In this document: in pieces, positions 11,465-27,046 of the stretch
Layout of the letters: each line of letters begins with the position of its first letter
How positions within the stretch are numbered: position 1 is the first letter of the stretch
Source: Chelatococcus asaccharovorans
GTDB lineage: Bacteria > Pseudomonadota > Alphaproteobacteria > Rhizobiales > Beijerinckiaceae
DNA: 64,000 nucleotides
Assembly: GCF_003201475.1 (NCBI RefSeq)
Contig: NZ_QJJK01000001.1
Coordinates: 384,501 to 448,500 of the forward strand
Direction of reading: 5' to 3'
Notes under the pieces: generated by a model
Databases searched by the model: none
Told to the model about the DNA's origin: nothing
The model's input: the letters and a program-made list of their open reading frames with translations, nothing else
Position numbers and translations under genes: made by a program

Positions 11465-13561
11465 TCACTCCGCTGCAATGGCGAAATGCGCGTCGTTCCG
11501 CGCTTCCGGCACGATCTCGGTGTTGATGGCGAAAGCATCGGACTGCTGTTCCGCAAGCCATGCGGGCCGTTCGGTGCGTAGCACGGGCGGAAGCCAGCCG
11601 ATCCCAGCTAGAAGCTGTTCGGCGGCTTCGGCCATCTCCACCTTCTTCTTGTCCGCAATCCGCTCTGCCGCCTCGTCGCCAAGGGCTTCGCGCACGGCGG
11701 CGAGTATATGCGCCTTGGTGACGCGGCCGAGATAGGTCCGCACGGTGGGCGTCCAGTGCGCCGTCATGTCAAGCGTCACCGCCGTCGCCAGCTTGTCCGC
11801 CGTCTCATGGGCGCAGCGCTTGCTGGTTTCCCAAGGCAGCTTCACCACATTGACGGTGAGCGAGGCGCAATGTGCGAGCAAGGCCATGAGGCTCGCATAG
11901 TCCAGACCGGCGACGAATCTCCACAGGTCCGCAACATCGCGCGGCATGTCCGCCGCCCATCCGGCATGACGATCCGCCAGCATCTTCGCCGCCGCCGTGT
12001 CCTCGATACCGTCCGCGTGGGCCGCGAGGTAGTTGCTGGTCGGATGGATTTCGAGGCAATGGGCCTCCCCGCCGCCGCGATAGAAGGTCTGCGCGGCCAG
12101 AGCGTGAACCACGGCGACAAGCGCCATGTCCGGCTGCTCGCCGAGGGCAAGGCGCAGCGCAAGGGTGCGATGCGCGGTCAGGTCGCGGATGAGAGAATCG
12201 GGCAGCGGCTTGCGGTCATCCCCGGCTTCTTCTTCGGGCTCCGGCTCGCTCGCGGAAACCTCGCCGCCATCGCCGTCCTGCTCGTCGCCGTCGAGAATTT
12301 CGCCATCGCCGTTGACGCGCACCCCTTCAATGACGGTTTCGCCATCCTCGGCGGCTTCCGGTTCCGGTTCCGGTGCCTCGTCCTCGGCCCGGATAAAGCC
12401 GCGCTCGATACGGATTTCGCCGTCATGGGCCACGACGACGAACACGCCGCCGCGCGCGATCTCGTCGGGATCGTAGGCATGACGCAGGGCGTCGATCCGC
12501 TCGATCTCGGCCTCAAGCTCCGCGAACCGCGCATCCACTTCGGGCGGGAGGTCAATGTCAGCGTCCTCCCATTCCGCCGTCAGGCGCTCAAACTCGTCCT
12601 GCGCGGCGTCGTAGGCATTGGCGTCCGCCTCCGAAAGCTCCACCGAATGCGGATAGACGCGCCGCATCCCATGGGCATGGGGGAAGTCGAGATAGACGGC
12701 GGTCCATTTCCAGCCTTCGGCCTCCCGCACCTCGGCGGCGATCCGTTCCAGCTTCTCGATGGCAAGCCGGTCCAGCAGCGCGGAGTCTTCAAAGAAGCCG
12801 CCGCGATCCTCGGTGAACAGGTCACGGATGATGTTGCCGCCTGCCTCGGTATAGACCTGCGCGCCGACGAAGACGGCGCGCCGTTCCGTTGCTGCCACGT
12901 TCATCTTGGTCAGGTCGCGCCGGATGATCGACGGATCGCGGTTATAGGACAGGTTTTCATAGACGTGTTCCTGCCGTGCGTGATCGTCGGTGATGGCGAA
13001 GGCCATCAACTGGTCCAAGGTCAGTTCGCCGTCGCGATAGACCTGCAAGAGCTTTGGGCTGACAGCGCCGAGCCGCATCCGCTGCTTCACGACATGCGCG
13101 GTCACGCCGAACCGGGCGGCGATTTCCTCCGCACCCCATCCACGATCCTCCGAAAGCTCGCGGAAGCGCTCGAACTCGTCGGCAGGGTGCAGGTTCTCGC
13201 GCGTGACATTCTCGTCAAGACTGATCTCGGCGGCATCGTTCGCCATGTCGATGACGCAGCGGATCGGCTCGGTCTTTTTGATCTCCTTGCGCTTCACGCG
13301 CAGCATCTGCGCCAGCCTGCGGCCTTCACCGATGCTGACCAGATAGAAGCCGGTCGGTTCGCCGGATGCATCAAGCTCCGGCTCCACCACCAGATTTTGC
13401 AGGATGCCCTTGGCGGCAATGCTCGCGGCCTTCGCCTCGATAGACGCCTCGCTGTGCGGGGTCTTGCGGGCATTCTTCGGGTGCTTCTTGAGCTTGTTGA
13501 GCGGGATGAAGACGGTCGCGCCATTTTCGACGATCGGGGGGTTGTTTGCAGTCGTGGCCAT
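11465..13561 (-). CDS. ParB/RepB/Spo0J-like partition protein, long form
   Basis: A 698-residue ParB-superfamily protein. The N-terminal ParB/Srx nuclease-like domain (residues about 15-130) has VFIPLNKLKKHPKNARKT, IEAKAASIAAKGILQNLVV and FYLVSIGEGRRLAQML; the central HTH (about 150-210) has GWGAEEIAARFGVTAHVVKQRMRLGAV. An acidic low-complexity stretch (EAPEPEPEAAEDGE and similar) near residues 395-450 separates a helical C-terminal domain. Long ParB-like proteins of this kind are standard in Hyphomicrobiales ICEs and plasmids and are thought to bind DNA, perhaps as a partition, transfer or regulatory factor; no ParA lies next to it here. The ATG at 13561 is directly preceded by the shared leader repeat. 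Confidence 0.9.
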   Translation of the reverse strand: MATTANNPPIVENGATVFIPLNKLKKHPKNARKTPHSEASIEAKAASIAAKGILQNLVVEPELDASGEPTGFYLVSIGEGRRLAQMLRVKRKEIKKTEPIRCVIDMANDAAEISLDENVTRENLHPADEFERFRELSEDRGWGAEEIAARFGVTAHVVKQRMRLGAVSPKLLQVYRDGELTLDQLMAFAITDDHARQEHVYENLSYNRDPSIIRRDLTKMNVAATERRAVFVGAQVYTEAGGNIIRDLFTEDRGGFFEDSALLDRLAIEKLERIAAEVREAEGWKWTAVYLDFPHAHGMRRVYPHSVELSEADANAYDAAQDEFERLTAEWEDADIDLPPEVDARFAELEAEIERIDALRHAYDPDEIARGGVFVVVAHDGEIRIERGFIRAEDEAPEPEPEAAEDGETVIEGVRVNGDGEILDGDEQDGDGGEVSASEPEPEEEAGDDRKPLPDSLIRDLTAHRTLALRLALGEQPDMALVAVVHALAAQTFYRGGGEAHCLEIHPTSNYLAAHADGIEDTAAAKMLADRHAGWAADMPRDVADLWRFVAGLDYASLMALLAHCASLTVNVVKLPWETSKRCAHETADKLATAVTLDMTAHWTPTVRTYLGRVTKAHILAAVREALGDEAAERIADKKKVEMAEAAEQLLAGIGWLPPVLRTERPAWLAEQQSDAFAINTEIVPEARNDAHFAIAAE

Positions 13562-13681
13562 GGTCTTTCTCCTATTGGCTTGGGTTGGAGCGCAGCGCTG
13601 CGCTGCAACCCTGCCCGTCGGCGAGACCGGGGTAGCAGAGGGCAAGAGCGGTCGGGCGGAGGGGGATCACCCGGCCTGCAC
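13559..13681 (-). repeat. Leader repeat B (shared 5' region)
   Basis: Counterpart of 8703-8826, ending at the ParB-like start codon. The palindrome AGCGCAGCGCTGCGCT is at 13589-13604, about 30 bases before the start, so the transcript leader would fold into a strong hairpin. Confidence 0.75.
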
Positions 13682-13931
13682 AAGCGGGTTTCCTTCAACG
13701 TGAAGTGCTGAAAGCTTTATCCGCGCGGAAGGTCGGGGATACCGCCCGCCCGCTCTTGCCCGCCGCGAGGGCGGAGCCCTTAGCCCTGAAAGGCGGTGCG
13801 AGCCCTTGGGATCAGTGAGAAAAGTCGCAACACCGTCAAGATCTGGAGCCTTGCCGATCTTCTACTTCAATTGAGCAAATTGCAGCGGTTGTATATTGTG
13901 GCTGTGGGCGATCGCTCGGGGGGGCATCAGT
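13682..13931. other. Junction between ICE backbone and defence island
   Basis: About 250 bases between divergent genes (ParB-like, minus; small protein, plus). It holds the ParB-side promoter and the promoter listed at 13871. The left half shows a loose echo of the sequence upstream of DUF932 (a GC-rich block ending CCCTTAGCC). Confidence 0.4.
13871..13899 (+). promoter_or_regulatory. Candidate promoter for the small protein-ATPase operon
   Basis: TTGAGC (13871-13876) and TATTGT (13894-13899) are 17 bases apart, about 33 bases before the start codon at 13932. A G-rich stretch before the ATG could act as ribosome site. Confidence 0.35.
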
Positions 13932-14159
13932 ATGTCGGGCAGTTTTGATTTTTCACTCGATGAGGACTGGTCGACAAACATCGGCCGGCTGAAGGTGCAT
14001 CTCGAGACAGTTGATGCCGAGTGCGTCAAAATCCTCTTCGATAACCTCGCCATCCTGGAAGCTGGCGACAACAACGCGCGGCGGGATTTCAATCAGAAGG
14101 TCCTTGAAGCCTTGGAGGCCGCCGCGCAGGCGGAGATAGACTCTCAGGGGGGCGAGTGA
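13932..14159 (+). CDS. Small acidic protein coupled to Rad50-like ATPase
   Basis: A 75-residue acidic, mostly helical protein (MSGSFDFSLDEDWSTNIGRL at the start; helix-rich KVLEALEAAAQAEIDSQ at the end). I recognise no family. Its stop codon overlaps the start of the ATPase gene (ATGA), so the two products are made together and probably act as a complex. The closest idea is a small partner subunit of an SMC/Rad50-like ATPase system, comparable in position to the middle component in ABC-three-component defence systems, but sequence alone does not prove that. It starts the plus-strand part of the defence island. Confidence 0.75.
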   Translation: MSGSFDFSLDEDWSTNIGRLKVHLETVDAECVKILFDNLAILEAGDNNARRDFNQKVLEALEAAAQAEIDSQGGE

Positions 14160-16657
14160 TGCCCCGTTACTACCTGACCAAGCTCGGCGTTGAAGGGTTT
14201 CGAGGCATCAAGAACGAGGGAGATCCGCTCACCCTTCGCTTCAAGCCAGACGCGGTCAATTCCATCTATGCCCAGAACGGCATCGGCAAGACCTCGCTGT
14301 TCGAGGCCATCAGCTACGCCATCTTCGACAAGTTGCCCAAGCTCGACGGGCTCCAGCGGAGCGAGCGGCCGGAGACATACTATGTGAATCGCTTCCATAC
14401 GGGCGGGGTCGGCTCCATCTCCTTGGAGTTTACACCGGACGACGGCACAGCGGCGGTCGAAATCGTCGTCCAGCGCACGGCCGCAGGTCAGCGCACCGTG
14501 ACGAGCCCGACAGGACATGCCGATCCCGAAGCTTTCCTCGCCGCGTTGGCCGAAGATTTCACGGTCGTGGATTACGCCAAATTCACGCGCTTTATCGACG
14601 ATTCGCCCCTCGATCGGGGGCGCACCTTCTCCTCCTTGATCGGACTGGCCCGCTTCGCGCACCTCCGCCAACGGTTCGATCAGGCGAGCAACACACGGGC
14701 TTTCAACACCGATTTCCAGATGGCCGCGTTGAAGGCGAAGCTTGAAGCCGCCGAAAAGCTCGTGCGGGATCATCGGGCTGCGGCGTTGTCGGCTTATGAG
14801 GCCGTGACGGGAACGGCAATCCAGGACCTGTCGGCAGAAGTGCAGCGGGTCGCGGAAATCACGGCCGCACTGGCTGCCATTCCAACGCTCGCGCCAGTCT
14901 TCGCCGGAAAAGACATCCTGACGGTGGACATGGATGCCGCCCGCGCCGCCATCGTCGCGGCGGAGGGCGGTCCCGCGAAGGCCGAGTATCAGAAGGTGTT
15001 GCGCAATATCGAGGCGCTTTCCCAGAGCGCGCCCACGCCGGAAGCGGCGGCCGACATCGGGACGCTGCTCGACCTGGCACGCCGTCATGACGCGGCGGTC
15101 GCGCTCGCCGGCAGCAAGAGCCGGCAGGACCTTTTCGAGGCCGCCAAGGGCGTGGTCGAGGAAGCGGACTATAGCGATCCTCACCAATGCCCCGTCTGCG
15201 ACACGCATATCGAAGAGCCCATTGCCACGCGGATGGAACGGCTGCTTGAGCGCTATCGTGAGGCGGACCAACTCGGCGAAGAAGTCAAGCAGGCCGTGAC
15301 CGCCAGCGTCTGGCTGGATTGGCTCAACAAGCTGGAAAGTTGCGCCGCCCTGACCGTCGCGGACGACAAGAAGCACCGGGCGAGCATCCGACAGTTGGCG
15401 AACGAAAACCGCCTGACTGAGGGTCGTCTGCGGGAAGCGGTCGATAACGCGCAGCCGCTCGAAGAGGAGCGAAAGACCGCACTTGAGACCGCGCAGAAGC
15501 GGGAACAGGAGCTTCAGGCCGAATTGCCGCCGTCGCTTGTCGCACTGACCCAGCAACTCGAAGCCGGAAGCCGCTTCCGTGAAGCCATCCTTGGACATCG
15601 AACAGCGGCAAAGGAAGCAAGCGCCTGGCGGTCGCACAAGAAATGGCGAGAGCGGTGGCAAACCTTCATCGGCGCCGCCGCCAAGACCGTGGGTGAGGCG
15701 GAGAGTCGGCTGGCGACCCAGCGCATCAACGCGATTGAGGCGAGCTATCAAGACCTGTTTCGGGGTCTGGTGCGGGGCGGCGTGGATATGCGGCCCAAAC
15801 TGGAGCGGTCGGCGGACAGCGAAGACGTGGATCTGAAGCTGGAGAACTTCTACGGCGAGGCCGGCATCTCGGCACGGGCCGTCCTGTCCGAGAGCTACCG
15901 GAACGCCATAGCCGGCTCGATCTTCTTCGCGGCGGCGGTCAAGCAGAGCGGTCCCGCCCGATTCATGGTGCTCGACGACATAACCTCCAGCTTCGATGGC
16001 GGCCACCAGTTCGCCTTGATGGAGGCATTGCGCACCAAGTTGCAGGCTTCAGCGGCAGCCGACGGCCTGCAATTCATCGTGCTCAGCCACGACACGCTTT
16101 TGGAGAAGTATTTCGACAAGACAGCGAGCGAACAGGTGGGCTGGCACCACCAGCGCCTGCAAGGTGCCGCCCCGACGGGGAACGTGTACGCCAGCCAGCT
16201 CGATGCGAACCGGCTCAAGAATCTGGCGACGACGCATCTTCAGGCCGGGCAGGTGGACATCGGCCAGCCGTTCGTGCGGCAGTATCTGGAGTTCAAGTTG
16301 TCGCAGATCATCTCCAAGCTGAAGATTCCGGTGCCGCCCGACTATGCCATCCGCAGCGACAACAAGACTGTCGGGAATGCTCTCGACGCCATCTCATCGG
16401 CCATCGACCTTTTCGACAGCGCCGGCAGAATCGTACTGAGCGCGCAACAGAAGACGGATTTCCGCAACCAGCATGTCCCTGCGATTATCGCGAACTACGT
16501 CAGTCACTATGAGACAGGCGGCGGCACACCGATCAACGCCCATGTGCTGCTCGGCGTGCTGCAATCCGTGGACGACCTCGCCGAATGCTTTCGGTACGAT
16601 GATACGTCCAAGACGCCGCCCGAGCGGAAATGGTATCGGAATCTGGGACAATGGTAG
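14159..16657 (+). CDS. Rad50/SMC-like AAA ATPase with CPVC zinc hook
   Basis: An 832-residue ABC-class ATPase of the Rad50/RecF/RecN kind. Visible parts: fold start KLGVEGFRGIKN; Walker A AQNGIGKTS (about 38-46, first Gly replaced by Ala); long helical arms with a single CPVC motif at 344-347, which in Rad50 pairs with another monomer around zinc; signature LSESYRNAIAGS (about 575-586); Walker B FMVLDDITSSFD (about 602-613); switch His in IVLSHD (about 640). After the head there are ~180 extra residues not found in a minimal Rad50. There is no Mre11-type nuclease beside it; only the coupled 75-residue protein. It converges with the GGCT-like gene that ends the opposite operon. Likely senses DNA ends or structures as part of a defence module; function inferred from context. 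Confidence 0.85.
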   Translation: MPRYYLTKLGVEGFRGIKNEGDPLTLRFKPDAVNSIYAQNGIGKTSLFEAISYAIFDKLPKLDGLQRSERPETYYVNRFHTGGVGSISLEFTPDDGTAAVEIVVQRTAAGQRTVTSPTGHADPEAFLAALAEDFTVVDYAKFTRFIDDSPLDRGRTFSSLIGLARFAHLRQRFDQASNTRAFNTDFQMAALKAKLEAAEKLVRDHRAAALSAYEAVTGTAIQDLSAEVQRVAEITAALAAIPTLAPVFAGKDILTVDMDAARAAIVAAEGGPAKAEYQKVLRNIEALSQSAPTPEAAADIGTLLDLARRHDAAVALAGSKSRQDLFEAAKGVVEEADYSDPHQCPVCDTHIEEPIATRMERLLERYREADQLGEEVKQAVTASVWLDWLNKLESCAALTVADDKKHRASIRQLANENRLTEGRLREAVDNAQPLEEERKTALETAQKREQELQAELPPSLVALTQQLEAGSRFREAILGHRTAAKEASAWRSHKKWRERWQTFIGAAAKTVGEAESRLATQRINAIEASYQDLFRGLVRGGVDMRPKLERSADSEDVDLKLENFYGEAGISARAVLSESYRNAIAGSIFFAAAVKQSGPARFMVLDDITSSFDGGHQFALMEALRTKLQASAAADGLQFIVLSHDTLLEKYFDKTASEQVGWHHQRLQGAAPTGNVYASQLDANRLKNLATTHLQAGQVDIGQPFVRQYLEFKLSQIISKLKIPVPPDYAIRSDNKTVGNALDAISSAIDLFDSAGRIVLSAQQKTDFRNQHVPAIIANYVSHYETGGGTPINAHVLLGVLQSVDDLAECFRYDDTSKTPPERKWYRNLGQW

Positions 16658-16878: not shown

Positions 16879-17610
16879 TTAAGCTTCCAGCATTTCGCTA
16901 CGCAACATCGTGATGACATCGCTATATGTATCAGTAGTTAACCAGCATGGCGCCGCCCTTTCGACGTGGCTCCAGATTTCGAGATCGGCTTCGGTGCGGA
17001 TACCGTGACGCACATTTTCCAGGAAATAGCGCTCATGACCGCCATCCTGGTCTATCCACGCATCGGCAACGGCATCTACTGTAGGCAGCCGAGCGTCTGG
17101 AACCGTCGCGGTTGCCAGGATGATGTCGATATCCAGCACTTCGCCGGCCGCACCGCTCGGCCATCCGATATCCAGATGCCCGTCAGGTTTCACGATCGAA
17201 AGACCTTTTGCGCCTACTTCCCGGAAATGATTACTCCAGTGAGCGGCCAATAACTTTCTAGCTTTATCGCTCCCGAGTAGTGCACCCACACATCCCCAAC
17301 CGCTCCCGATCGCGCCGGGCGCAGATGTGGGCGCCTCGGCCTTCCATAGCGCACCAGCCTCGACCACCAAGTCATCGATCGTTTCGATCTCAAGCTGACA
17401 GGGCACCAGAATCGCCACGCCGGAAGGGTCGTCCGATCGAAGGGTCATCGTAAAGGTATTCCCGCGCGAACGTGATCTACGGCCATAATATATCGGCGCT
17501 TTCACCGGCATACGCCTGCCGATGTCCAGCCGCGTGTTTCGCCAGTTTACCCGCCCGTCTGTCTCAGAGTCCCAGAGAAGTGAGCCTATGATCAGAATTC
17601 CACATTTCAT
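16879..17610 (-). CDS. Gamma-glutamylcyclotransferase-like protein
   Basis: A 243-residue protein starting MKCGILIIGSLLWDSE. The strand-then-GSLLW start, followed by an arginine-rich YYGRRSRSRGNTFTMTL stretch, recalls the BtrG/gamma-glutamylcyclotransferase (ChaC/GGCT) fold, where YGSLxW forms the substrate loop. The catalytic acid of that fold cannot be placed with confidence, and the second half has no match I know. It follows the AIPR gene by 47 bases on the same strand, so it is probably the last gene of the defence operon. GGCT-type proteins can cleave gamma-glutamyl or similar small-molecule bonds, so a nucleotide- or peptide-modifying effector role is possible but unproven. Confidence 0.55.
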   Translation of the reverse strand: MKCGILIIGSLLWDSETDGRVNWRNTRLDIGRRMPVKAPIYYGRRSRSRGNTFTMTLRSDDPSGVAILVPCQLEIETIDDLVVEAGALWKAEAPTSAPGAIGSGWGCVGALLGSDKARKLLAAHWSNHFREVGAKGLSIVKPDGHLDIGWPSGAAGEVLDIDIILATATVPDARLPTVDAVADAWIDQDGGHERYFLENVRHGIRTEADLEIWSHVERAAPCWLTTDTYSDVITMLRSEMLEA

Positions 17611-17657
17611 CACAAAATGCCGTTTCTCTGTTTGTACCCCAAGATGTCGTTTGCTGG

Positions 17658-19712
17658 TTAGAGTATCCCCTCATGCTGAGCCTTGCCGAGGATTTCCATA
17701 AGGACAGCACTCTGCTTTTCCGTAGGGATCTTTGTGGGCATCTGCTCCGCAATCTTGAGTATACCCATCTCCTTCGGCGTCAAAAGCCGACGGCTTGTGC
17801 CTTCCTTCAGAATGAGGGACCAATGTGCCGTCGGCACTTCGAAAACCTGCTTCTGCACCTCGATCCCGTTGTCGATTTTCTGAGTCTGCCGTGCGGTCTT
17901 CGCTTCGTGCCGGTTATCCTCGACGGACGCGAGTGCGGCCCAGAACTCCTCGGGCAGAAGCTCGGCGATGTCGTCGGCCTGTTCGAACAACCGTGTCCAG
18001 CAACCCTCCCTCTTGCACCATTCGGAGATGTTCGAGATGCCCTGTGGCGGGCGGATGATATCCTCGTTCACGGCCGTCGCAATGGTAGCCAGCGCCTGTG
18101 AAAGCACTTCGTCCACCCCTTGAGCGGCCCATATTCTTTGATAATCCGGCGTTGTTTTCCGACGCTTCGTAATCTCTCCGAGCATGGAAAGCGTGTAGGC
18201 TACGATGTTCGCGCGGTAGCCGCCATTGTACCAGGACTGCGCGGAAACGAGCCTCTCGGTCGCGCGAAACAGAATGCCCCGCGCAATCGCCCGACGGAAA
18301 TACAATTCGTTGAAGGCGTCCGACGACTTTTCCCATTCCTTACCGATCCTGAGGGCATAACGGGCGAAGTTCTTCTGGCTGCCAAGGTTCACCCATCGGG
18401 GGTGATCGTCGAAGACGTTCTCGAACTTGGCGAGATCGGTCTTTGTGAGCATCTGCGTCTTGGGATATTCCGCCCGGCAGCGCTTCTGTTCGCTGGCCGT
18501 CAGCTTCGACTGCGCATCCACATACTGACCGCGTGCCCGCTCGTAGAACCATTTGGTCTCGCGCTGCGCGCCCTGCTGAGCGGGAGCCCAGATGCGGCGC
18601 GAGAATTCGGCCATTCGGACGTGGAAGGGGTGATTGGAGAAGAAGTCGGCCGCGTTCACCCGGTTCTGAGTGTTGGCATATTCCGAAATGCGGGGAACGA
18701 CCATCTCGCTCTGCTCGCTGTCGATCACTGACAGCTTCATCTGGACGAAGATGCCCGACAGGTCGGCCTTGTCGCGGCGCTGGGTGTGGAAGAGTGAGGC
18801 TGTTGTCTGGCCGCCGTTCACGATCTGAAGATCAGTCATGCGGACGATCTGGAGCCCGGTATCGGTCATCCGCGTCTCGACCTCCTGCGCCGTCGCGGTG
18901 ATGCCGTTGTTATAGGCGAAGAACATCTGCGGTTCATTGAGAATGGTTGCGCGGATGCCCTTGTTCACTTGCGCGCGGGCCTGGAGGAACGTCCGCACAT
19001 TCTGCTCCAGCAGGCGGGCGCTGTATCTGTCGTAGAGCGCGGCGAGGATATTGGCCGGCATAACGATCAGGTAGGATTGATAAGAGTCCGAGCCGAGATT
19101 GGCGGGCAGGCAGTTGATGCCGTTCCCGAACAGCTCCACAAAATCGATATTGAGCGGCTCCTTGTGGCCGCGCGAGCTGCGCTGGCGCTGGAACCGCGCC
19201 ATGTCCCAGATGTGGTAGGTGGCACGGATACCGCCCACCTCGCCATCCGGAAACGCCTGGAAGCGGTCGCTGAGCAGCCGCTCGGAGGTCAGGTAGAAAT
19301 TGACTTGGCGAAGCATTGCGCGGCGGTCGGCGATCTGCCGGACGAGACCGTATTCCGGTGTGGTCACGTCGGGCTCCAGTGTGCGCTGAAGGCTTGCCTC
19401 GAAAAAGTTGACGACCCTCTTGAAGGCCGCATCCACGTCGGTTCGGGTCAGGGTTTCCAGTTCACGGCGGCAGTCGAAGTCAGCCACGAAGATGTCGAGT
19501 GCGCCCTCGTCATTGAACCAATAGCCATCGACGCGCATGCCGCGCGGAGCGCGGTAGTGGCAGTGCTCGAATCCCTCGATGAAGCCGGTTTCGATCAGCT
19601 CGGTGGAGACCGCCTCCATGAAGGCTTCAAGCTGATAGGTACTATTGGCCTCGGCGTCGGCCAGCGTCTCCTGACGGAAGTCGTGAAAGAACTCCTCGAC
19701 CGTCTGTTCCAT
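17658..19712 (-). CDS. AIPR family (abortive infection phage resistance) protein
   Basis: A 684-residue AIPR protein. The family signature is clear: FFAYNNGITATAQEV (about 264-278) and LQIVNGGQTTASLFH (about 295-309), followed by an ISEYANTQNRVNAADFFSNH block. The N-terminal ~110 residues (VDGYWFNDEGALDIFVADFD) have the spacing of a small nuclease-like or sensor fold seen in many AIPR proteins, but I do not see a complete PD-(D/E)XK site. The ATG at 19712 overlaps the stop of the DUF4420 gene. AIPR proteins recur in defence islands, including those with Z1 helicases and MORC-type ATPases, where their job is unknown. Confidence 0.9.
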   Translation of the reverse strand: MEQTVEEFFHDFRQETLADAEANSTYQLEAFMEAVSTELIETGFIEGFEHCHYRAPRGMRVDGYWFNDEGALDIFVADFDCRRELETLTRTDVDAAFKRVVNFFEASLQRTLEPDVTTPEYGLVRQIADRRAMLRQVNFYLTSERLLSDRFQAFPDGEVGGIRATYHIWDMARFQRQRSSRGHKEPLNIDFVELFGNGINCLPANLGSDSYQSYLIVMPANILAALYDRYSARLLEQNVRTFLQARAQVNKGIRATILNEPQMFFAYNNGITATAQEVETRMTDTGLQIVRMTDLQIVNGGQTTASLFHTQRRDKADLSGIFVQMKLSVIDSEQSEMVVPRISEYANTQNRVNAADFFSNHPFHVRMAEFSRRIWAPAQQGAQRETKWFYERARGQYVDAQSKLTASEQKRCRAEYPKTQMLTKTDLAKFENVFDDHPRWVNLGSQKNFARYALRIGKEWEKSSDAFNELYFRRAIARGILFRATERLVSAQSWYNGGYRANIVAYTLSMLGEITKRRKTTPDYQRIWAAQGVDEVLSQALATIATAVNEDIIRPPQGISNISEWCKREGCWTRLFEQADDIAELLPEEFWAALASVEDNRHEAKTARQTQKIDNGIEVQKQVFEVPTAHWSLILKEGTSRRLLTPKEMGILKIAEQMPTKIPTEKQSAVLMEILGKAQHEGIL

Positions 19713-20677
19713 CAGTTCCCCCCGAAGGCTTCCTCGTTGTCGCATTCGTAGGGCGCAATGGCTTCCAGCCGGATATCATATGCGACTCTGTCGATGCCGG
19801 TCGGCAGTTGCGACCGCATGAGCCGAGGAAAACCGTCGCCGACGCGATAGCTGTGCACATCGCTGACGACGAAGCGCGGTCCGTCATAGTCGGGTAATGG
19901 CGCATATCCGTGCGCGACCAGCTTTCGATCGAATGCCTCGACGGCTTCCGCTTCCGCGAGCTGCGTCTGCACGGCGCCGACGATCTCGTTGAGCGATCGT
20001 GCGCCCGTAGCGTCAGGCAGATTGCTCAGCCTGTAGATGCGCAGAAACAGTTCATCATTGAGCGATTCGAGCTGATCCTCTGAAGAAATGCGGACTGTGC
20101 TGCGCTCGGTGCCGGAGAGCGATTTGATCTCCACCGCCGTGTTGCCGAAGATGAAATCCTGATGCGACTTTTCCGGGCCGAGCCAGGCCTCGACGACTGC
20201 GGTGGTGGAAGCCTGCCGCTCGATCAGTTCCAGAAGAAAGGTGAGTTCGGCGAAGAGGCCGCGGACCTCCTCGGCCGACAGGTGTTGGCTGCGACCGGAC
20301 AGAAAGGTTTTCCAGCGCCGGATATGGGCCAGCGCGACGGCGAGCGAACTGGCGGAGTCGGTGGCGCGCTCCAGCGCGGATGCGAGCGTGAGGCAGAGCC
20401 CCTCGAAAAGATCGCGATCGACCTGTTTCTCAAGGGTGAGGACAAGGCGCTGCCGTCCCGATTCGCCTCCGCGAAGATCGACTTCAATGCCATGCACCGT
20501 GACCGCATTCTTCCGGAACTGGTCGGTGTGGTCGCCCTGAAGCTCCACAATGAACAGACAGGCGCCAGTCGTGTCCCGTCCCCAGAAGCAAGGCACGGCG
20601 GTTTCGCCAGGCACTTGGCGGACGTTGAAGTCCGCGCCGGGAACCGCGATGTCATCCCAAGGCGAGGACTCAGACAT
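19712..20677 (-). CDS. PD-(D/E)XK family protein, DUF4420 type
   Basis: A 321-residue nuclease-fold protein. An acidic residue of the first helix lies in LFAELTFLLELIE (about 141-153), and the catalytic strand pair is D174 in HQDFIFG with E183-x-K185 in AVEIKS, fitting the PD-(D/E)XK pattern; a following serine-rich strand (ERSTVRISSEDQL) is typical of DUF4420. The start overlaps the Z1 stop by eight bases and the stop overlaps the AIPR start, so translation is coupled on both sides. Likely the DNA-cleaving subunit paired with the Z1 helicase and MORC ATPase. The active-site residues are all present. Confidence 0.88.
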   Translation of the reverse strand: MSESSPWDDIAVPGADFNVRQVPGETAVPCFWGRDTTGACLFIVELQGDHTDQFRKNAVTVHGIEVDLRGGESGRQRLVLTLEKQVDRDLFEGLCLTLASALERATDSASSLAVALAHIRRWKTFLSGRSQHLSAEEVRGLFAELTFLLELIERQASTTAVVEAWLGPEKSHQDFIFGNTAVEIKSLSGTERSTVRISSEDQLESLNDELFLRIYRLSNLPDATGARSLNEIVGAVQTQLAEAEAVEAFDRKLVAHGYAPLPDYDGPRFVVSDVHSYRVGDGFPRLMRSQLPTGIDRVAYDIRLEAIAPYECDNEEAFGGN

Positions 20678-23327
20678 CGTAGTCTTCCTCCTCGTCCGGG
20701 TCATCGCCGTAGCCCTGCATCTGCTGGAGCCAGACTTTATTCACGACCACGTTGATGGTGGTCGAATAGTCTCCGTAGGGAAAGCTCACGCCAAAAGCGG
20801 CGATCGGCCCCGTCACAGACTCGTCCCTGGGTTCGAGGCTGTGGATCATGAGGAGCGGTCTGTTCCGGACCATCCGATAATGCGTGTCGGACACCGCTCC
20901 GGTTCCATCCTCATCGCCGGCTAGCGCCTCCGCTTCCTCCCGCTGTGCATCGTCGAGCCCGAGCTTCTCGTCGCCGCGGGAGGCGACGCGATCCTTGTTC
21001 AAGCGCCACGCGGTTCCGTTCGGCTGATCCTTGCCGACGACGCGCACCTGGTTTCTCAGGGTAAAGGGTTTCTCGCCGGGTACGCCCGAGGGAGAGATTA
21101 GCAGCACGTCGGTCAGCGGACGCTTTTCCGCGATCCGTTCGAGGTAGTTCAACACGTCCGATTTTATGCCAGTGAAGGTCGAGTGACACTCGAACCGGGT
21201 CAGGAAATCCTCGACCACCGCAATCGGAACGTCGCGGAAGATGACGCCCTTTTCGGTGGCCTCCTCCGGATGCCCTCCGAAGCCGCCGCGCCAGTGCTCG
21301 GCGATAAGCTCGAAGTTCCGAGCGTTCACCTCCGGATCGGTCGAGACGACGTAGCTCTCCCGCAACCGCCCGCTGAAGCTCTGTTCGACCGTGACCTCCT
21401 GGCCGGACCGCATCTTATTGGTAGCGGTGATCAGCAGGCTGTCCGGGTGCGAACGGACATACAGACCGAAATCCTTCGGGCTAAGTCCGTCGCGCCTCAT
21501 CCGCTTGACTTGCTGGGTGAGTTCCTCCGCGGCCTCAGCGATATGCGAGTACCAATTGATGGAGTCGCGCGAGAGGTGGACGCGGCAGAGGTCCTCGAAG
21601 CCCGGACGGTAGCCGAACCAACGGCCCATCTGCATGAGCGTGTCGTACATCTTGGTGTTGCGATACATGTAGCTGACGGTCAGACCTTCGATGGTCAGGC
21701 CGCGTGACAAGCTGAGCCCGCCGACGGCAATCGCGGTCAGACCGACGCCCTCCTTCTCGTACCGGGTGTAGTCGAGAACCTCGTCGCTCTTACTGTTGAT
21801 GACGTAGAGATGGAGCTGATCGAACGCGCTATTGAGCGTCGCCTTTACCTCGGACCAAGTGAAGCCCGCATCAGCATATTCGGCGTCGAACGCCTGTTTC
21901 AGACCCTGCATGTACACATTCGCCGAGGAAACAGATTCCGGCATCAGATAGTTGGTCCGGACCGCCTCCCTGATCTTCTTCTCGCGCAGGCTGAGGAAAT
22001 CGCGCACGGCCTGCTGCACCGGCACGAACCGCGACACGTTGATCATCATCGAGCAGTGCTTGCCGGTCTGCCCGCGCAGGTTGCGGATGGCACGCGCGAC
22101 GATGAACTCGTCGAGGGCGTGGTAGAGGCTGGGCGGCAGCTCCGGGACGGGGTCGTCACGTTTATGCCTGTAAGGGAGGAAGTCCTCGCAGTCGTCGATC
22201 GGCTTCACGATCGACTGGCTGGTCTCGTCGTCGAGGAAGACCTTCTCCGCACCGAAATAGGTCGTCGGCGCGTCGAGGCAGTAGATGAAGTCGCGCGGGA
22301 ACAGCTCCTCGCGCACGTCATCGTCATAGGCATCGGGATTGATGAAGATGTTGGCGAACGGAGTCGCCGTGTAGCCAACGTAGCAGGATTTCGCGAACAG
22401 CCCGAGGATGCGCCGGATCATGGCGTTCGTGCGGGTCGGGTCGAGATCCTCCTTGTTGGTGTTGATCGAGGCATTGTCGGCCTCGTCGTCAATCAGTAGC
22501 ATCGGCACGTCGGAAATCCGGCCGTCGCCTTCGGCGTCAAGCGCCTTCAGCCACTTGTGGAGGGCCGTCAGCGTCGTGACATTCTTCTTGATGATGAGGA
22601 TGATCGGCTTTGAGAAATCGTTGATTTTCCAGCCGCTCTTTGCCGCGGTGTTCTTGTTGAAATCCTCGTTGATGTTGGTGAGCGTTGCAGGATGAGGATA
22701 GCCGAGGTCGAGGCCGACGCCGATGGAGCGACGGTCCTCGGGGTCGCTGGACCGCCCGATGAAGGCTTCATCGATGCGCTCCTGGGTCTGCTTGCGCAGG
22801 TTGTTGTGAATACCGGCAATGACGATGATAAACTTGTAGCCGGCATCGGCGGCGCGGGCGATCAGGCCGGTGTAGTTGGCCGTCTTGCCGGACTGGACAT
22901 GTCCGATGACCAGCCCGCGGCGGTTCCAGCTCGTGCCCTCGCTGTGGGGGTCCTGGAGATGCCCCAGGATGCGGCTGGTAACGTCGCTCAGGGACTGCAC
23001 CATCCGGGGCGGCCAACCGTCCTTCAACAGGAAATTCTCGTAGGCGCCGCCATAGGTCCAGGTGATATCCTCGCGTTTGCGGACCCACTGATCATCATGC
23101 TTCGCGGTGACGTCGACGAGCGAGACACCCGCGCCCATGCGCGTATCGACCGAGATCATCGCTTCGGTGATGATGTTGCGGAGATCGCCGGTGTAGCCGA
23201 AAATGGCGGCGATCTGCTTCGCCTTTTCCTCCACCTGTTCGCGCGTCGGTGTCTCGGTCAGATTGGCAAGACCCGAGATAAGCGCGTTGGCAATATTCCG
23301 TTCTTCCGTAATTGTGGTGGCGCTCAC
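20670..23327 (-). CDS. Z1 domain superfamily II helicase-like protein
   Basis: An 885-residue SF2-type ATPase with a Z1 domain. Motif I is GHVQSGKTANY (Lys148); motif II is MLLIDDEADNAS (about 276-286); motif III is YTATPFAN (about 319-326); motif VI is QMGRWFGYRPGF (566-577). The Z1 domain lies between and after these (GLSLSRGLTIEGLTVSYMYR). The C-terminus is very acidic (DDPDEEEDYDV). Z1 proteins of this form are fixed partners of MORC-like ATPases, DUF4420, AIPR, Vsr and cytosine methylases in predicted restriction systems. It probably translocates on DNA and drives the nuclease. The start lies three bases before the MORC stop, another overlap in the operon. Confidence 0.92.
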   Translation of the reverse strand: MSATTITEERNIANALISGLANLTETPTREQVEEKAKQIAAIFGYTGDLRNIITEAMISVDTRMGAGVSLVDVTAKHDDQWVRKREDITWTYGGAYENFLLKDGWPPRMVQSLSDVTSRILGHLQDPHSEGTSWNRRGLVIGHVQSGKTANYTGLIARAADAGYKFIIVIAGIHNNLRKQTQERIDEAFIGRSSDPEDRRSIGVGLDLGYPHPATLTNINEDFNKNTAAKSGWKINDFSKPIILIIKKNVTTLTALHKWLKALDAEGDGRISDVPMLLIDDEADNASINTNKEDLDPTRTNAMIRRILGLFAKSCYVGYTATPFANIFINPDAYDDDVREELFPRDFIYCLDAPTTYFGAEKVFLDDETSQSIVKPIDDCEDFLPYRHKRDDPVPELPPSLYHALDEFIVARAIRNLRGQTGKHCSMMINVSRFVPVQQAVRDFLSLREKKIREAVRTNYLMPESVSSANVYMQGLKQAFDAEYADAGFTWSEVKATLNSAFDQLHLYVINSKSDEVLDYTRYEKEGVGLTAIAVGGLSLSRGLTIEGLTVSYMYRNTKMYDTLMQMGRWFGYRPGFEDLCRVHLSRDSINWYSHIAEAAEELTQQVKRMRRDGLSPKDFGLYVRSHPDSLLITATNKMRSGQEVTVEQSFSGRLRESYVVSTDPEVNARNFELIAEHWRGGFGGHPEEATEKGVIFRDVPIAVVEDFLTRFECHSTFTGIKSDVLNYLERIAEKRPLTDVLLISPSGVPGEKPFTLRNQVRVVGKDQPNGTAWRLNKDRVASRGDEKLGLDDAQREEAEALAGDEDGTGAVSDTHYRMVRNRPLLMIHSLEPRDESVTGPIAAFGVSFPYGDYSTTINVVVNKVWLQQMQGYGDDPDEEEDYDV

Positions 23328-24802
23328 GCAAAAGCCTCGCTGATGAATTTTTCGGCCGCCTCAATCTGGCCATCGAAGAGGTGCGTCGAGCGCACAATAT
23401 TTAGAAAAGCGTTCGGGTCGCCCGGGCCGTCTCCGTAGAGGACCTGCTTGAGGCTCCTCAGCCGGTCCAGCGTCCGGTTCTCGTCCACAATTGTCTGGCT
23501 CACTTCGCGCGGATGGGTCGAGTAATCCGAGTAGATCATTTCAACTGGCAGGGCAGCGGCGATTGAATCGAGCAGCACGCGAAGCGACACCATATCCTCA
23601 GGCGAAAGCCTCTCGCTCAGCGATGTGATGAGCGGATGCTGTTCATTGATCGAGAAGCGGATGCCGCCGTGATCGGCATAGCGTTCCCAGAGCGGAGCCT
23701 GGTTCTCCTGAAACAGCTTCTGCCCCCTACCACGATGCACGGTCACACTGCGGGCGGTGATCTTAGTGATGATCTGGCGAAGGCGCTCCCGCACGACCTG
23801 CGGGGGGCGAGCGCGCGATTTTTTGATGTCGATGGTCCAGGCCTCGTCGAGGCTGTTGGGGAAATCGATCTGGACCCGAGCGAGCTTCGTCGCTTCGCCT
23901 TTGGGCACGAGTCGGAACCAGTCACCCCACGCCATCAATCGTCCGTTCCGATAGATGTAAGCGCCCTGATTGGAGATGAAGTCGCTGCGGTCCTGATAAT
24001 AGTCGTACTCCGATGCGGACAGCCTGCTGTGGTGAGGCAGGATGTAAGGCTGCATCGAAACCGCCACGTCATCGACCCAGACGGTTTCCTCGGGGAGGAT
24101 CTGTGTCGCCGTATTCCTCCTGCAGAAGGGATCGAAGGGTGTGATCGGATGGCCGTTAATGCGAATCGCCAGTTTCCGTCGGCCTTTCACTTCACCTGCG
24201 AGGAAGCGGTGGAACACCAGCGATAGGTGTCGTTCGACGATGGCCAGCTTCTCGTTGACAATTTCATCCCGCTTCTGCCCGGTCTCATCTTCGAACAGTC
24301 GGTCGAGGTCACGCCAGATGACCAGCGTGCCGGTATCGCCCAGCATTTCGAAGAACGGCTGCGCCGCGATATCAGCCGGCTCGAGAACGGCGATGAACCA
24401 GTCATCGTCCTCCTCGACCTGGGCGAGATCCCATTCTGCGCCGGCACGATGGCCGCTCACGGCGCTCACGACGGTGAGCCGACGGCATTGGGAGAAGGAC
24501 GCAGTCTTAAGCCCAAGACCGAAGCGTCCCAAGTCCTTCGGCCCACGTTTCTTGCGGGGGTCCGCCGCACCGTGGCGCATGGCGGCTATCACCTCGGCTT
24601 CCGTCATGCCCCGTCCATTGTCGATAATGACGAGGACCGGAGCGCTTCGGCTCATGTCGCAAAAGATTTGGATGTCGGTTGCGTCTGCGGAGATGCTGTT
24701 GTCGATCAGGTCGGCAATCGCAGTTTCGAGCGAGTAGCCGAGATCGCGGAGAGATGCCGTCAGGCTGGAGGCGCTCGGCGGAAGATGGTGGGCGCGCGCC
24801 AT
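23324..24802 (-). CDS. MORC/HSP90-like GHKL ATPase
   Basis: A 492-residue GHKL-fold ATPase with a following S5-like domain. Motif I is TAIADLIDNSISA (about 28-39), motif II VIIDNGRGM (about 58-66), motif III LGRFGLGLKTASFSQ (about 91-105). In most GHKL proteins the catalytic base in motif I is Glu; here the matching residue appears to be Asp31 (DLIDN), as also in some prokaryotic MORC relatives. Prokaryotic MORC ATPases occur in predicted restriction systems with Z1, nuclease and methylase genes and are thought to be DNA-clamping or remodelling factors, related to eukaryotic MORC and MutL. The start overlaps the vsr stop (TGATG). Confidence 0.9.
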   Translation of the reverse strand: MARAHHLPPSASSLTASLRDLGYSLETAIADLIDNSISADATDIQIFCDMSRSAPVLVIIDNGRGMTEAEVIAAMRHGAADPRKKRGPKDLGRFGLGLKTASFSQCRRLTVVSAVSGHRAGAEWDLAQVEEDDDWFIAVLEPADIAAQPFFEMLGDTGTLVIWRDLDRLFEDETGQKRDEIVNEKLAIVERHLSLVFHRFLAGEVKGRRKLAIRINGHPITPFDPFCRRNTATQILPEETVWVDDVAVSMQPYILPHHSRLSASEYDYYQDRSDFISNQGAYIYRNGRLMAWGDWFRLVPKGEATKLARVQIDFPNSLDEAWTIDIKKSRARPPQVVRERLRQIITKITARSVTVHRGRGQKLFQENQAPLWERYADHGGIRFSINEQHPLITSLSERLSPEDMVSLRVLLDSIAAALPVEMIYSDYSTHPREVSQTIVDENRTLDRLRSLKQVLYGDGPGDPNAFLNIVRSTHLFDGQIEAAEKFISEAFA

Positions 24803-25224
24803 CAATCGTCCTTCCGCAGATCGCTCGCCAAACGACGAGCAACACCTTCCGCATCCGCCTTAAGCTCGCACTCCCAAACGGTCAGGACGGTCCAACCGGC
24901 AGCTTCGAGCTCTGCTTGATTGCGAGCGTCGCGGCTGACATTGCCATCGAACTTCGCCTGCCAGAATTCCCGGCGCGTCGAGGGCGTGGTTGCATTCCGG
25001 CAGCCAGGATGCCGATGCCAGAAGCAGCCGTGAACGAAGATCGCAGTCCGATATCTGGGGAGAATGATGTCAGGGCGGCCGGGAAGCTGCTTCGCGTGGA
25101 GCCGGAAGCGGAATCCCGCGCGGTGCAGCAGCGAACGCAGCACCAGTTCAGGGCCGGTGTCCCGGCCTCTGATCCTTGACATGTTCCAGCTTCTGCGTTC
25201 GCTCGTCAGCGTGTCTGCCATCAT
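24802..25224 (-). CDS. vsr: Vsr-type very short patch repair endonuclease
   Basis: A 140-residue Vsr endonuclease. It shows RSWNMSRIRGRDTGPELVLR, GFRFRLHAKQLPGRPDIILP and the active-site region RYRTAIFVHGCFWHRHPGC with the catalytic Asp and paired His residues and the structural zinc ligands; EFWQAKFDGNVSRDARN completes the fold. Classic Vsr nicks T:G mismatches that arise by deamination at Dcm sites, which fits its place right after the methyltransferase gene (stop/start overlap at 25221-25224). In MORC-Z1 islands Vsr-like nucleases may instead take part in restriction. A longer frame to 25401 only extends into the methyltransferase gene and is not used. Confidence 0.92.
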   Translation of the reverse strand: MMADTLTSERRSWNMSRIRGRDTGPELVLRSLLHRAGFRFRLHAKQLPGRPDIILPRYRTAIFVHGCFWHRHPGCRNATTPSTRREFWQAKFDGNVSRDARNQAELEAAGWTVLTVWECELKADAEGVARRLASDLRKDD

Positions 25225-26846
25225 CGTCCGCTCCGGACGGAATCCAGCACTTGGGCGATAACTTCCGCAATCTGTTTCGCCAACTGCGGCGGCACCGCAT
25301 TGCCGACCTGGTGATATTGTGCCGTTCGTGGTCCTGCGAAATGATAATTGTCCGGAAAAGTCTGAAGGCGCGCAGCTTCGCGCACAGTCAGGCTTCGGCA
25401 CTGGGCCGGATCGTAGTGAATGAAGTAATGGCCATCCTTCGAAATGTGTGACGTAATCGTCGTCGACACTTGCTCGGCAAGCTGCACCCGGAATCGGTCC
25501 GAGAACATTTTTCCAGTTCGCCCTTCCTCAACATTTTGATGGTCGGGAAGAAGATTGGCAGGAAAATCCGCAAGTTTCGGACTGCGCCCGGTTTCCTGCG
25601 CAAAGGTCGCAGCATATAGATAGCGGCGAAGATCGGACGCCATGTGACTGCGAGCCTCATGTGCGGTCAGAACCGGCAACCGTTCATCATACAGGCTGCG
25701 CAGAACGCCGTGGTTCGGCCGCCGGAACCTGTAGCGCGTCGAAGAAGTGGCGCGCGGCGACTGCATCTCGATGAGATTTTCAAACTTGAGGCTGCGTGCA
25801 ACGGGACCGGCATATGTGGCGCCGTTCAGCTCACGACGAATGTTCATGCTCGAAATCTGGCGGATCTCTCGTAGCCACGCCGTCGGACTGTCCTCTTCCC
25901 GCGACAACCCGCTTCGGATCGGAGGCAGAGAGCCAATTGTGTCCCGTAGCGTTGGCGCGAGCATCTTCTTGAGCAATGCCGGTCGAGCTTTCAGGTCACC
26001 GCGGATGCCGACAATGAACATTCGATGTCGCGCCTGCGGAATGCCATGATCCTCTGCTCGAACCAGAAACAGGCGCGGATCGACCTCTCCCTCGGCCGCC
26101 TCTTCCTGCGTAAGCGAGTAGAGCTTGTAGGTAAGGTCGGCCGGCGCGTCAGAAATTGCGGTGGCCGGCTTTGCGAGATCCTGCACTATGCGGGAAATGG
26201 CCGACTTCCCCTCGATGGTCGCCGAAAGAAGTCCCTTCACGTTCTCCATGACGAAAACAGGAGGGCGATGATCCGCGATGATTCTCAGATATTCGAGATA
26301 GAGGGTATGCCGCTCGTCTTTTTCGAACCCCGGCTGTCCCATCATCCGGGAACGGCCGACCAAAGAGTATGCCTGGCAGGGTGGGCCGCCGACGAGTGCC
26401 CATAGCTCGTTGGCCTGGAGGCGATCCTGGATGACGCTGCGCACCTCTGCATGAGTTTCGCGGCCGAGCGAGATTCGCAGTGCGCTGCGCATGGCATGGG
26501 CATGCGCAGCAGGGTGCCGAGCGAATAGTTCAGCCTCCGTAATACGGCCAGCTAGAAAATCGTAATAGTCTTCCGGGACCTCCCCGTCAGGAAAGTGGCG
26601 AAAGAAATGACGAAGCAGGAGTGTTTGATGTGAGAATGCGTCCCGTTCAATCGACACGACACTGCGGAACCGACGACGCAGCTTATCGTCGAGCGCCGAC
26701 GCAAAACCTTCCCCAAGTCCGCCGGGGCCGGCGAAGACGTCTATGACAGGGTATCCAGTTACCGCCTCGCCTGCGACATCGGCGTCATGCGGCGCCACTT
26801 CCGAAGCCGATCCCGTCTGTGTTTGAATCTCCCCCTGTTCCAGCAT
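25221..26846 (-). CDS. C5 cytosine-specific DNA methyltransferase
   Basis: A 541-residue Dcm-type enzyme that makes 5-methylcytosine with S-adenosylmethionine. Motifs in order: I VIDVFAGPGGLGEGFASAL; IV ALVGGPPCQAYSLVGRSR with the catalytic Cys; VI VFVMENVKGLL; VIII IPQARHRMFIVGIRG; a ~170-residue target-recognition region; X YHQVGNAVPPQLAKQI. All catalytic residues are present. At 541 residues it is longer than minimal Dcm, mostly through an N-terminal ~35-residue lead and an insert near 75-130. The ATG at 26846 lies two bases after the stop of the Phd-like gene. Expected to protect host DNA from the restriction components downstream; target sequence unknown. Confidence 0.93.
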   Translation of the reverse strand: MLEQGEIQTQTGSASEVAPHDADVAGEAVTGYPVIDVFAGPGGLGEGFASALDDKLRRRFRSVVSIERDAFSHQTLLLRHFFRHFPDGEVPEDYYDFLAGRITEAELFARHPAAHAHAMRSALRISLGRETHAEVRSVIQDRLQANELWALVGGPPCQAYSLVGRSRMMGQPGFEKDERHTLYLEYLRIIADHRPPVFVMENVKGLLSATIEGKSAISRIVQDLAKPATAISDAPADLTYKLYSLTQEEAAEGEVDPRLFLVRAEDHGIPQARHRMFIVGIRGDLKARPALLKKMLAPTLRDTIGSLPPIRSGLSREEDSPTAWLREIRQISSMNIRRELNGATYAGPVARSLKFENLIEMQSPRATSSTRYRFRRPNHGVLRSLYDERLPVLTAHEARSHMASDLRRYLYAATFAQETGRSPKLADFPANLLPDHQNVEEGRTGKMFSDRFRVQLAEQVSTTITSHISKDGHYFIHYDPAQCRSLTVREAARLQTFPDNYHFAGPRTAQYHQVGNAVPPQLAKQIAEVIAQVLDSVRSGR

Positions 26847-26848
26847 TC

Positions 26849-27046
26849 TCAACGACCGACCTTCACCGTATTCCGCATCGCGTCATCTGGCCGCTTAGCC
26901 GGCTTATTCAGACGCTGGAACTCCTCGACACTCATCACAACGACAACCGGCCTGCCATGCTTCTCGACCTGAACCGGCGCAGCACGCGCATAGTCCAGAA
27001 GCATGCCGAAACTGTTCTTTGCGTCCTTCGCGGACATCGTTCGCAT
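26849..27046 (-). CDS. Phd/YefM-type small regulator heading the operon
   Basis: A 65-residue protein with the Phd/YefM antitoxin fold: MSAKDAKNSFGMLLDYARAA, PVQVEKHGRPVVVVMSVEEF and QRLNK are the family strand-helix pattern. It is a little shorter than usual (75-90) because the C-terminal toxin-neutralising tail is brief. No RelE/ParE/Doc toxin gene follows; instead the methyltransferase starts two bases after its stop. Phd/YefM proteins bind palindromic operators at their own promoter, and a perfect palindrome lies 18 bases upstream (27065-27078). So this protein may act as the control gene of the restriction-type operon, like C proteins elsewhere. That role is inference. Confidence 0.82.
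   Translation of the reverse strand: MRTMSAKDAKNSFGMLLDYARAAPVQVEKHGRPVVVVMSVEEFQRLNKPAKRPDDAMRNTVKVGR

Follow-up and report, generated by a model that had tools for sequence, protein, structure and literature searches.

RloC is a Rad50-like zinc-hook tRNase in which the zinc hook has a regulatory role; its conserved residues follow the pattern Arg-x3-Glu-x36-52-His, often with a Ser before the His, and tRNA cleavage requires each of R692, E696, and H737 (PMC2610378). It is activated by DNA breaks (PMC3874168). Lamassu also combines a zinc hook with a small partner (PMC10586767), and the coiled-coil DndD/CxC ABC ATPase is obligately paired with a small protein, DndE (PMC10853773). DUF4145 (PF13643) has been classed as a HEPN domain (PMC3710099). 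In this study, a stretch of 64,000 nucleotides of the Rhizobiales bacterium Chelatococcus asaccharovorans (contig NZ_QJJK01000001.1, positions 384,501 to 448,500; this whole stretch is called the window) was analyzed. It was found that two overlapping genes in the window encode a small acidic protein and a zinc-hook ABC ATPase whose C-terminal tail distantly resembles HEPN domains.

The pair is a genuine two-gene unit. The small open reading frame (ORF) begins with an ATG at 13932 and ends with a stop codon at 14157-14159, encoding 75 residues with a net charge of -10. An alternative upstream TTG (13896) would extend the frame, while the ATG agrees with the start annotated in L003, the nearest relative. 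The ATG of the ATPase gene lies at 14159, overlapping the last base of the small ORF, and its stop codon ends at 16657. A promoter and terminator scan gave no plus-strand signal for the pair. The coordinates and the overlap given in the first-pass annotation, which was made from the sequence alone, were thus borne out, and so were the single CPVC hook, the ABC signature, and the C-terminal extension, which was measured as about 150-180 residues past the head. The features are as follows; residue conservation refers to an alignment of 66 ATPases that leaves out L072 and other near-copies.

13932..14159, plus strand: small acidic partner protein of 75 residues, apparently a new family (ORF, 86 of 87 loci, selection).
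14159..16657, plus strand: zinc-hook ABC (Rad50-like) ATPase of 832 residues with a putative C-terminal HEPN-type domain.
14276..14296, plus strand: Walker A motif NGIGKTS, residues 40-46; G43 and K44 invariant in 66 of 66.
15188..15199, plus strand: single zinc hook CPVC, residues 344-347; C344 and C347 invariant in 66 of 66.
15884..15907, plus strand: LSESYRNA, residues 576-583, which I take to be the ABC signature.
15962..15997, plus strand: Walker B and D-loop FMVLDDITSSFD, residues 602-613; D606 and D607 invariant.
16205..16585, plus strand: C-terminal helical bundle, residues 683-809, seemingly HEPN/DUF4145-like (helices of the predicted model; hhalign to DUF4145).
16277..16291, plus strand: R707-x3-E711, predicted to be catalytic, as in the R-x3-E of the RloC triad; 66 of 66.
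16493..16507, plus strand: N779-x3-H783, predicted HEPN active-site motif in which the Arg of Rx4-6H is missing; 66 of 66.
13866..16650, no strand assigned: the only stretch of the window with DNA similarity (91.5%) to the 18.5-kb locus L003 on a Rhizobium NLR16a plasmid.

Is the small frame conserved? Of 87 loci (the window included), 86 have a same-strand match to the small-protein profile at the start of the ATPase gene; the match ends from 138 bases before to 25 bases after the assumed start. The only locus without a match, L087, is a broken ATPase fragment; absence of the frame from homologous loci, which the first-pass annotation had named as an outcome that would speak against its reading, was not observed. 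The profile was built from 72 of the 86 matched proteins, and the 14 outside it match with E values of 6e-5 or better. In each of these 14 loci, the small protein shares a single open reading frame with the ATPase and is thus naturally fused to it (L054, L056, L065, L067, L068, L072, L073, L074, L076, L077, L079, L080, L082, and L085), in most of them with a Pro/Ala-rich linker. The tree of the 66 ATPases includes all fused rows but L072, and these 13 require two label changes: 12 of them form an alphaproteobacterial group, and the other is from Arthrobacter. Two independent fusion events are the simplest reading. Among the 72 unfused loci, the overlap with the ATPase gene is four bases in 49 and one base in 18. 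The ratio of nonsynonymous to synonymous substitution rates (dN/dS) of the small gene was 0.05-0.29 for 17 of 19 pairs hand-picked among close relatives, indicating purifying selection, and the net charge is negative in 70 of 72 small proteins (median -7). No significant match was obtained in Pfam, NCBIfam, PHROGs, or PADLOC, which supports the earlier suggestion that the small protein may be a new family. A search of its profile against the PDB returned zinc-uptake periplasmic proteins (E 4e-4) over a single 32-residue stretch, which was judged to be a chance match.

A scan of one genome per species found at least 77 loci, mostly in Alphaproteobacteria; the loci listed also include Betaproteobacteria, Gammaproteobacteria, Actinomycetota, Nitrospirota, Planctomycetota, Acidobacteriota, Bdellovibrionota, and Bacteroidota, and many of those beyond Alphaproteobacteria come from metagenome-assembled genomes. 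A relative was found in 19 plasmid records, 18 of which cover at least 80% of the query, while viral contigs and phage records yielded none. The occurrence is patchy: 2 of 100 near genomes, counting the window's own, have the pair, and the tail profile matched only the own genome among 289 genomes of the class. DNA similarity to the 18.5-kb locus L011 of Vineibacter terrae, which together with L003 is one of the two nearest relatives, is limited to 13943-16650 (87.3%). Judging from these alignments, the pair is apparently transferred on its own, without the flanking DNA. The most frequent neighbor gene family was present in 13 of 84 loci (6-kb flanks, some contigs being short; the partial L083, L084, and L087 were left out), and no third family is commoner; I read its inspected members as tyrosine integrases. 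Restriction or anti-phage genes lie within 8 kb in four of the seven annotated plasmid loci (L003, L006, L007, and L009), a count that has no baseline. In the five distant plasmid relatives examined, out of 54 matching records, an ORF of 58-81 codons overlaps the ATPase start by 4-26 bases in every case, and in L127 an ORF of 68 codons lies immediately upstream of the ATPase. L133-L137 have cysteine pairs after the HEPN-like part, which I read as a zinc ribbon.

The Pfam matches of the large protein are AAA_23 (E 2e-12) and SMC_N (E 2e-10), both above the cut-off, and AAA_13 (E 6e-8) below it. Its Walker B has an Asp at the position where a Glu is usual. The model predicted from the 66 sequences has a mean predicted local distance difference test score (pLDDT) of 86.4 and a predicted template modeling score (pTM) of 0.55, with blocks of lower confidence (58-70) in the tail near residues 731-740 and 781-790. 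In fold searches with Foldseek and VIA, matches to the head and arms came from Rad50, SMC, and Lamassu LmuACB chains; Rad50 and SMC were the best head matches, Rad50 9bi4 being aligned over 409 residues at 3.6 A with a VIA Z of 27.3. As far as the predicted model tells, the ATPase head is a Rad50/SMC fold with a zinc hook.

The model has five helices in the tail (683-695, 699-721, 737-754, 762-785, and 794-809), and it places R707 and E711 on helix two and N779 and H783 on helix four. None of these four residues varies among the 66 ATPases, which include a Bacteroidetes relative at 23% identity. A wider alignment of 20 proteins, six of them distant (L127 of the same class and L133-L137 on plasmids), has R in 19, E or D in 20, N in 19, and H in 20, the exception being L135. 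L135 has a Gly at the position of R707, yet it has an Arg beside the N in a HEPN-like RNEVGAH. In this one case, the active-site Arg may possibly have shifted between two helices.

When the profile of these 20 proteins was compared with DUF4145 by hhalign (14 of 15 DUF4145 sequences were used, leaving out L148), the score was 32.2 with a probability of 65.6% and a single-comparison E value of 5.8e-5. The alignment extends over the entire domain and keeps both R-x3-E and N..H in register, N779-x3-H783 falling on the N..aH of DUF4145. None of the column shuffles reached this score in three sets (0/40, maximum 14.6; 0/200, maximum 13.7; 0/150, maximum 14.4). The reversed alignment scored 16.2, and three coil segments from the same ATPase scored 9.1-9.8. 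The six distant members alone scored 30.0 (0/149 shuffles, maximum 19.9). As a yardstick, the RloC tail, an accepted HEPN domain, scored 24.1 with a probability of 16.9% (0/150 shuffles, maximum 17.5). The core tails and the distant tails match each other at 98.3%, both sets having been taken from one joint alignment. Weak hmmscan matches of the tails include HEPN_AbiU2 (best E 0.12) and DUF5677 (best E 0.28), two members each, which are presumably HEPN-like families. The profile comparison with DUF5677 was unclear (14.3, reached by 3/40 shuffles; 15.8 with the wider profile, shuffle maximum 14.9), and that of the tail profile with PDB sequences gave nothing convincing. I regard the tail as probably a HEPN domain, and I lean slightly toward its being an active RNase. 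Since the tail resembles a HEPN domain, the claim of the first-pass annotation that the pair contains no nuclease is probably wrong; on the basis of distant similarity and motif conservation, the best reading of the tail is a HEPN domain of the ribonuclease type.

The computed features are a two-gene unit with a conserved small frame, fusions, a hook, a head fold, the invariant R-E-N-H residues, and a distant DUF4145/HEPN similarity of the wider group. The balance only just tips toward the view that the pair is a self-contained, horizontally moving module in which a DNA-sensing ATPase releases a HEPN RNase carried on the same chain and the small protein acts as a regulatory subunit. By analogy with Rad50, the ATPase may dimerize via the zinc hook. 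Its Rad50-like head would sense an abnormal DNA state, such as the ends of invading DNA, and an ATP-driven change of the head would release the C-terminal HEPN-type domain. The freed domain would then cut RNA, perhaps tRNA as RloC does, and growth would stop. The small acidic protein would be a dedicated, fixed subunit near the N-terminus of the ATPase; because it is fused at two places in the tree, a built-in regulator is likelier than a separately degraded antitoxin. A role in defense or as a toxin is suggested by such analogies. More tentatively, there may be an unnamed SMC-like immune superfamily in which a sensor ATPase and an HEPN RNase effector are in one chain and a tiny acidic subunit sets the firing threshold. 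In such a superfamily, which I regard as somewhat doubtful, the small subunit would come from an overlapping gene or be fused ahead of the ATPase, its place and size being common and its sequence not.

If true, a compact two-gene design would be added to the ABC-HEPN group, whose member RloC reacts to DNA breaks. The dedicated small subunit and the natural fusions would provide a handle on the wiring of Rad50-like sensors to RNA-cutting effectors, and the fusions are suited to modeling of the complex of the small protein and the ATPase. There would also be a searchable signature for modules labeled as "AAA family ATPase" and "hypothetical protein" in public records. In the literature searched, I found no paper naming the pair and none joining a zinc hook with a HEPN domain; a 2020 classification of ABC ATPases (gkaa726) may already list the clade. 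The ABC-HEPN groups described earlier include APECO1_4465 and ERFG_01251 (PMC3710099).

In the window, a minus-strand operon (17658-26852) faces the pair convergently. In line with the first-pass annotation, which called it a MORC-Z1 operon, it is MZA-like: its products match MzaB, MzaC, MzaD, and MzaE, with a Vsr and a C5-methyltransferase gene preceding the Mza genes. The four Mza matches fall below the NCBIfam equivalog cut-offs, so the operon is a divergent MZA. It ends with an ORF of 244 residues (16879-17613, minus strand) that has no family match above the cut-off. Upstream of the pair lies another minus-strand ORF (11465-13645), which I take to be ParB-like, as annotated in L008. Within the flanks of 6 of the 86 loci, a relative is found. 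Such ParB-like neighbors hint that plasmids or integrative elements may have a recurrent site for such cargo.

Several results weigh against the proposed module. The classical Rx4-6H motif of HEPN domains is not present, no Arg being found at 776-778 in any of the 66 proteins. The 66-row profile of the family itself scored 21.8 against DUF4145 with a probability of 5.8%, which is borderline (0/149 shuffles, maximum 20.3), and the 14 core members scored 19.0 (2.7%), a score matched by 1/149 shuffles. An hmmscan of the 66 tails against Pfam and NCBIfam gave scattered weak matches only, none of them to DUF4145. The best 50 rows of the full-model Foldseek/VIA search contained head matches only and no HEPN chain, and are uninformative on the tail. 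Against the RloC tails (a set without L109, L117, and L118, the last being the same gene as L113, and profiled without L105 and L089), the tail scored 15.5, reached by 9/99 shuffles and exceeded by the reversed control (17.0), N..SH on N..SH being the only aligned block; the wider profile scored 16.9, reached by 1/40 and 0/100 shuffles. As for the small protein, no purifying signal was seen in 2 of the 19 pairs (window/L003, 0.58; L031/L037, 1.21 at a dS of 0.034). The small proteins of the six distant relatives have no similarity to those of the window family (9.3, reached by 3/60 shuffles), and a model of the natural fusion L080 predicted without an alignment was unusable (pLDDT 38.6).

Could the tail be a catalytically dead HEPN domain or an unrelated binding bundle, the pair being an accessory of DNA-end binding or repair that uses host nucleases? 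The missing Arg and the borderline family-only comparison are in favor of this, as HEPN domains are considered non-catalytic once the motif is lost (PMC3710099). However, R707, E711, N779, and H783 are invariant down to 23% identity, and R-x3-E...SH is identical in layout to the proven RloC triad (PMC2610378). I consider a dead or unrelated tail unlikely, although it is the alternative to be taken most seriously. It is very improbable that the pair is an accessory of the adjoining, convergent MZA operon. Among the relatives' loci, 65 of which are at least 15 kb in length, MzaC is found in 1/86 and MzaB, MzaD, and MzaE in 0/86, and the DNA similarity to the two nearest loci stops at the pair. 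Thus, the co-occurrence analysis suggested along with the first-pass annotation showed that the MZA genes do not accompany the pair, and the idea of an accessory DNA-end sensor of the operon is unsupported. Its other idea of an independent small defense module stands as to independence, given the pair-only DNA similarity, the lack of a recurrent third gene, and the lack of co-occurrence with MZA, while the defense part is the conjecture described above.

Does the ATPase then belong to the RloC/PrrC family of anticodon nucleases? The order of the parts is the same (ABC head, CxxC hook, and C-terminal R-x3-E...SH, here R707-x3-E711...S-H783), and the lengths are similar (804 and 832 residues). 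In contrast, the spacing from the Glu to the His is 71 residues in the window protein and 36-52 in RloC. The best bit scores of the PADLOC PDC-S06 models are 473 for L103, 529 for L102, 453 for L104, and 227 for the divergent L105, all of which I read as RloC from their motifs, but only 36 for the window ATPase, for which no PrrC match was listed by PADLOC. The head tree, which kept 25 of 44 rows, sets the window clade apart with a support of 91/91, the tail-to-tail comparison was not significant, and the dedicated small-partner gene is a further difference from RloC. Membership in this family is improbable. A reduced Lamassu (ABC-three-component) system, consisting of LmuB and a small LmuC-like middle subunit with the effector lost or fused, is an equally poor candidate. 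It shares a zinc-hook SMC-like ATPase and a small partner with the pair (PMC10586767), and the best PADLOC match of the ATPase is the LmuB model PDLC03859 (72.6 bits, residues 17-652). However, this match is generic because three of the four RloC-like rows score 55-62 bits with the same model. Four strong LmuB rows (L120-L123) have DQ at Walker B, whereas the window family has DD; LmuB rows are absent from the head tree, so LmuB is unplaced there. Lamassu has a separate effector, while no effector-like gene recurs near the pair (84 loci, within 6 kb, some contigs being short), and the pair differs further by its 180-residue tail and by a small protein that is unlike LmuC and matches none of the LmuC models.

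The proposed module, a sensor ATPase with its own HEPN-type domain and a small subunit, can also be compared with the remaining systems. The pairing of a coiled-coil ABC ATPase with a small protein resembles DndD/DndE, but the hook is CPxC instead of CxC, the ATPase matches the DndD models weakly, and the small protein belongs to no family. The head fold and the zinc hook of Rad50/SbcC are both present, while the coils are short and there is an extra C-terminal domain; no Mre11/SbcD partner is named in the seven annotated loci, and no family recurs as such among the 84 loci. The tail is DUF4145-like in the whole-domain alignment of the wider group and in its two motifs, but it differs in lacking the Arg before the N, in having no hmmscan match to the DUF4145 model, and in being joined to a zinc-hook ABC ATPase. 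By its sequence features, the pair is not RloC, not Lamassu as judged by its parts, and not Mre11-Rad50; by analogy, it may work like an ABC-HEPN protein with a small subunit of its own.

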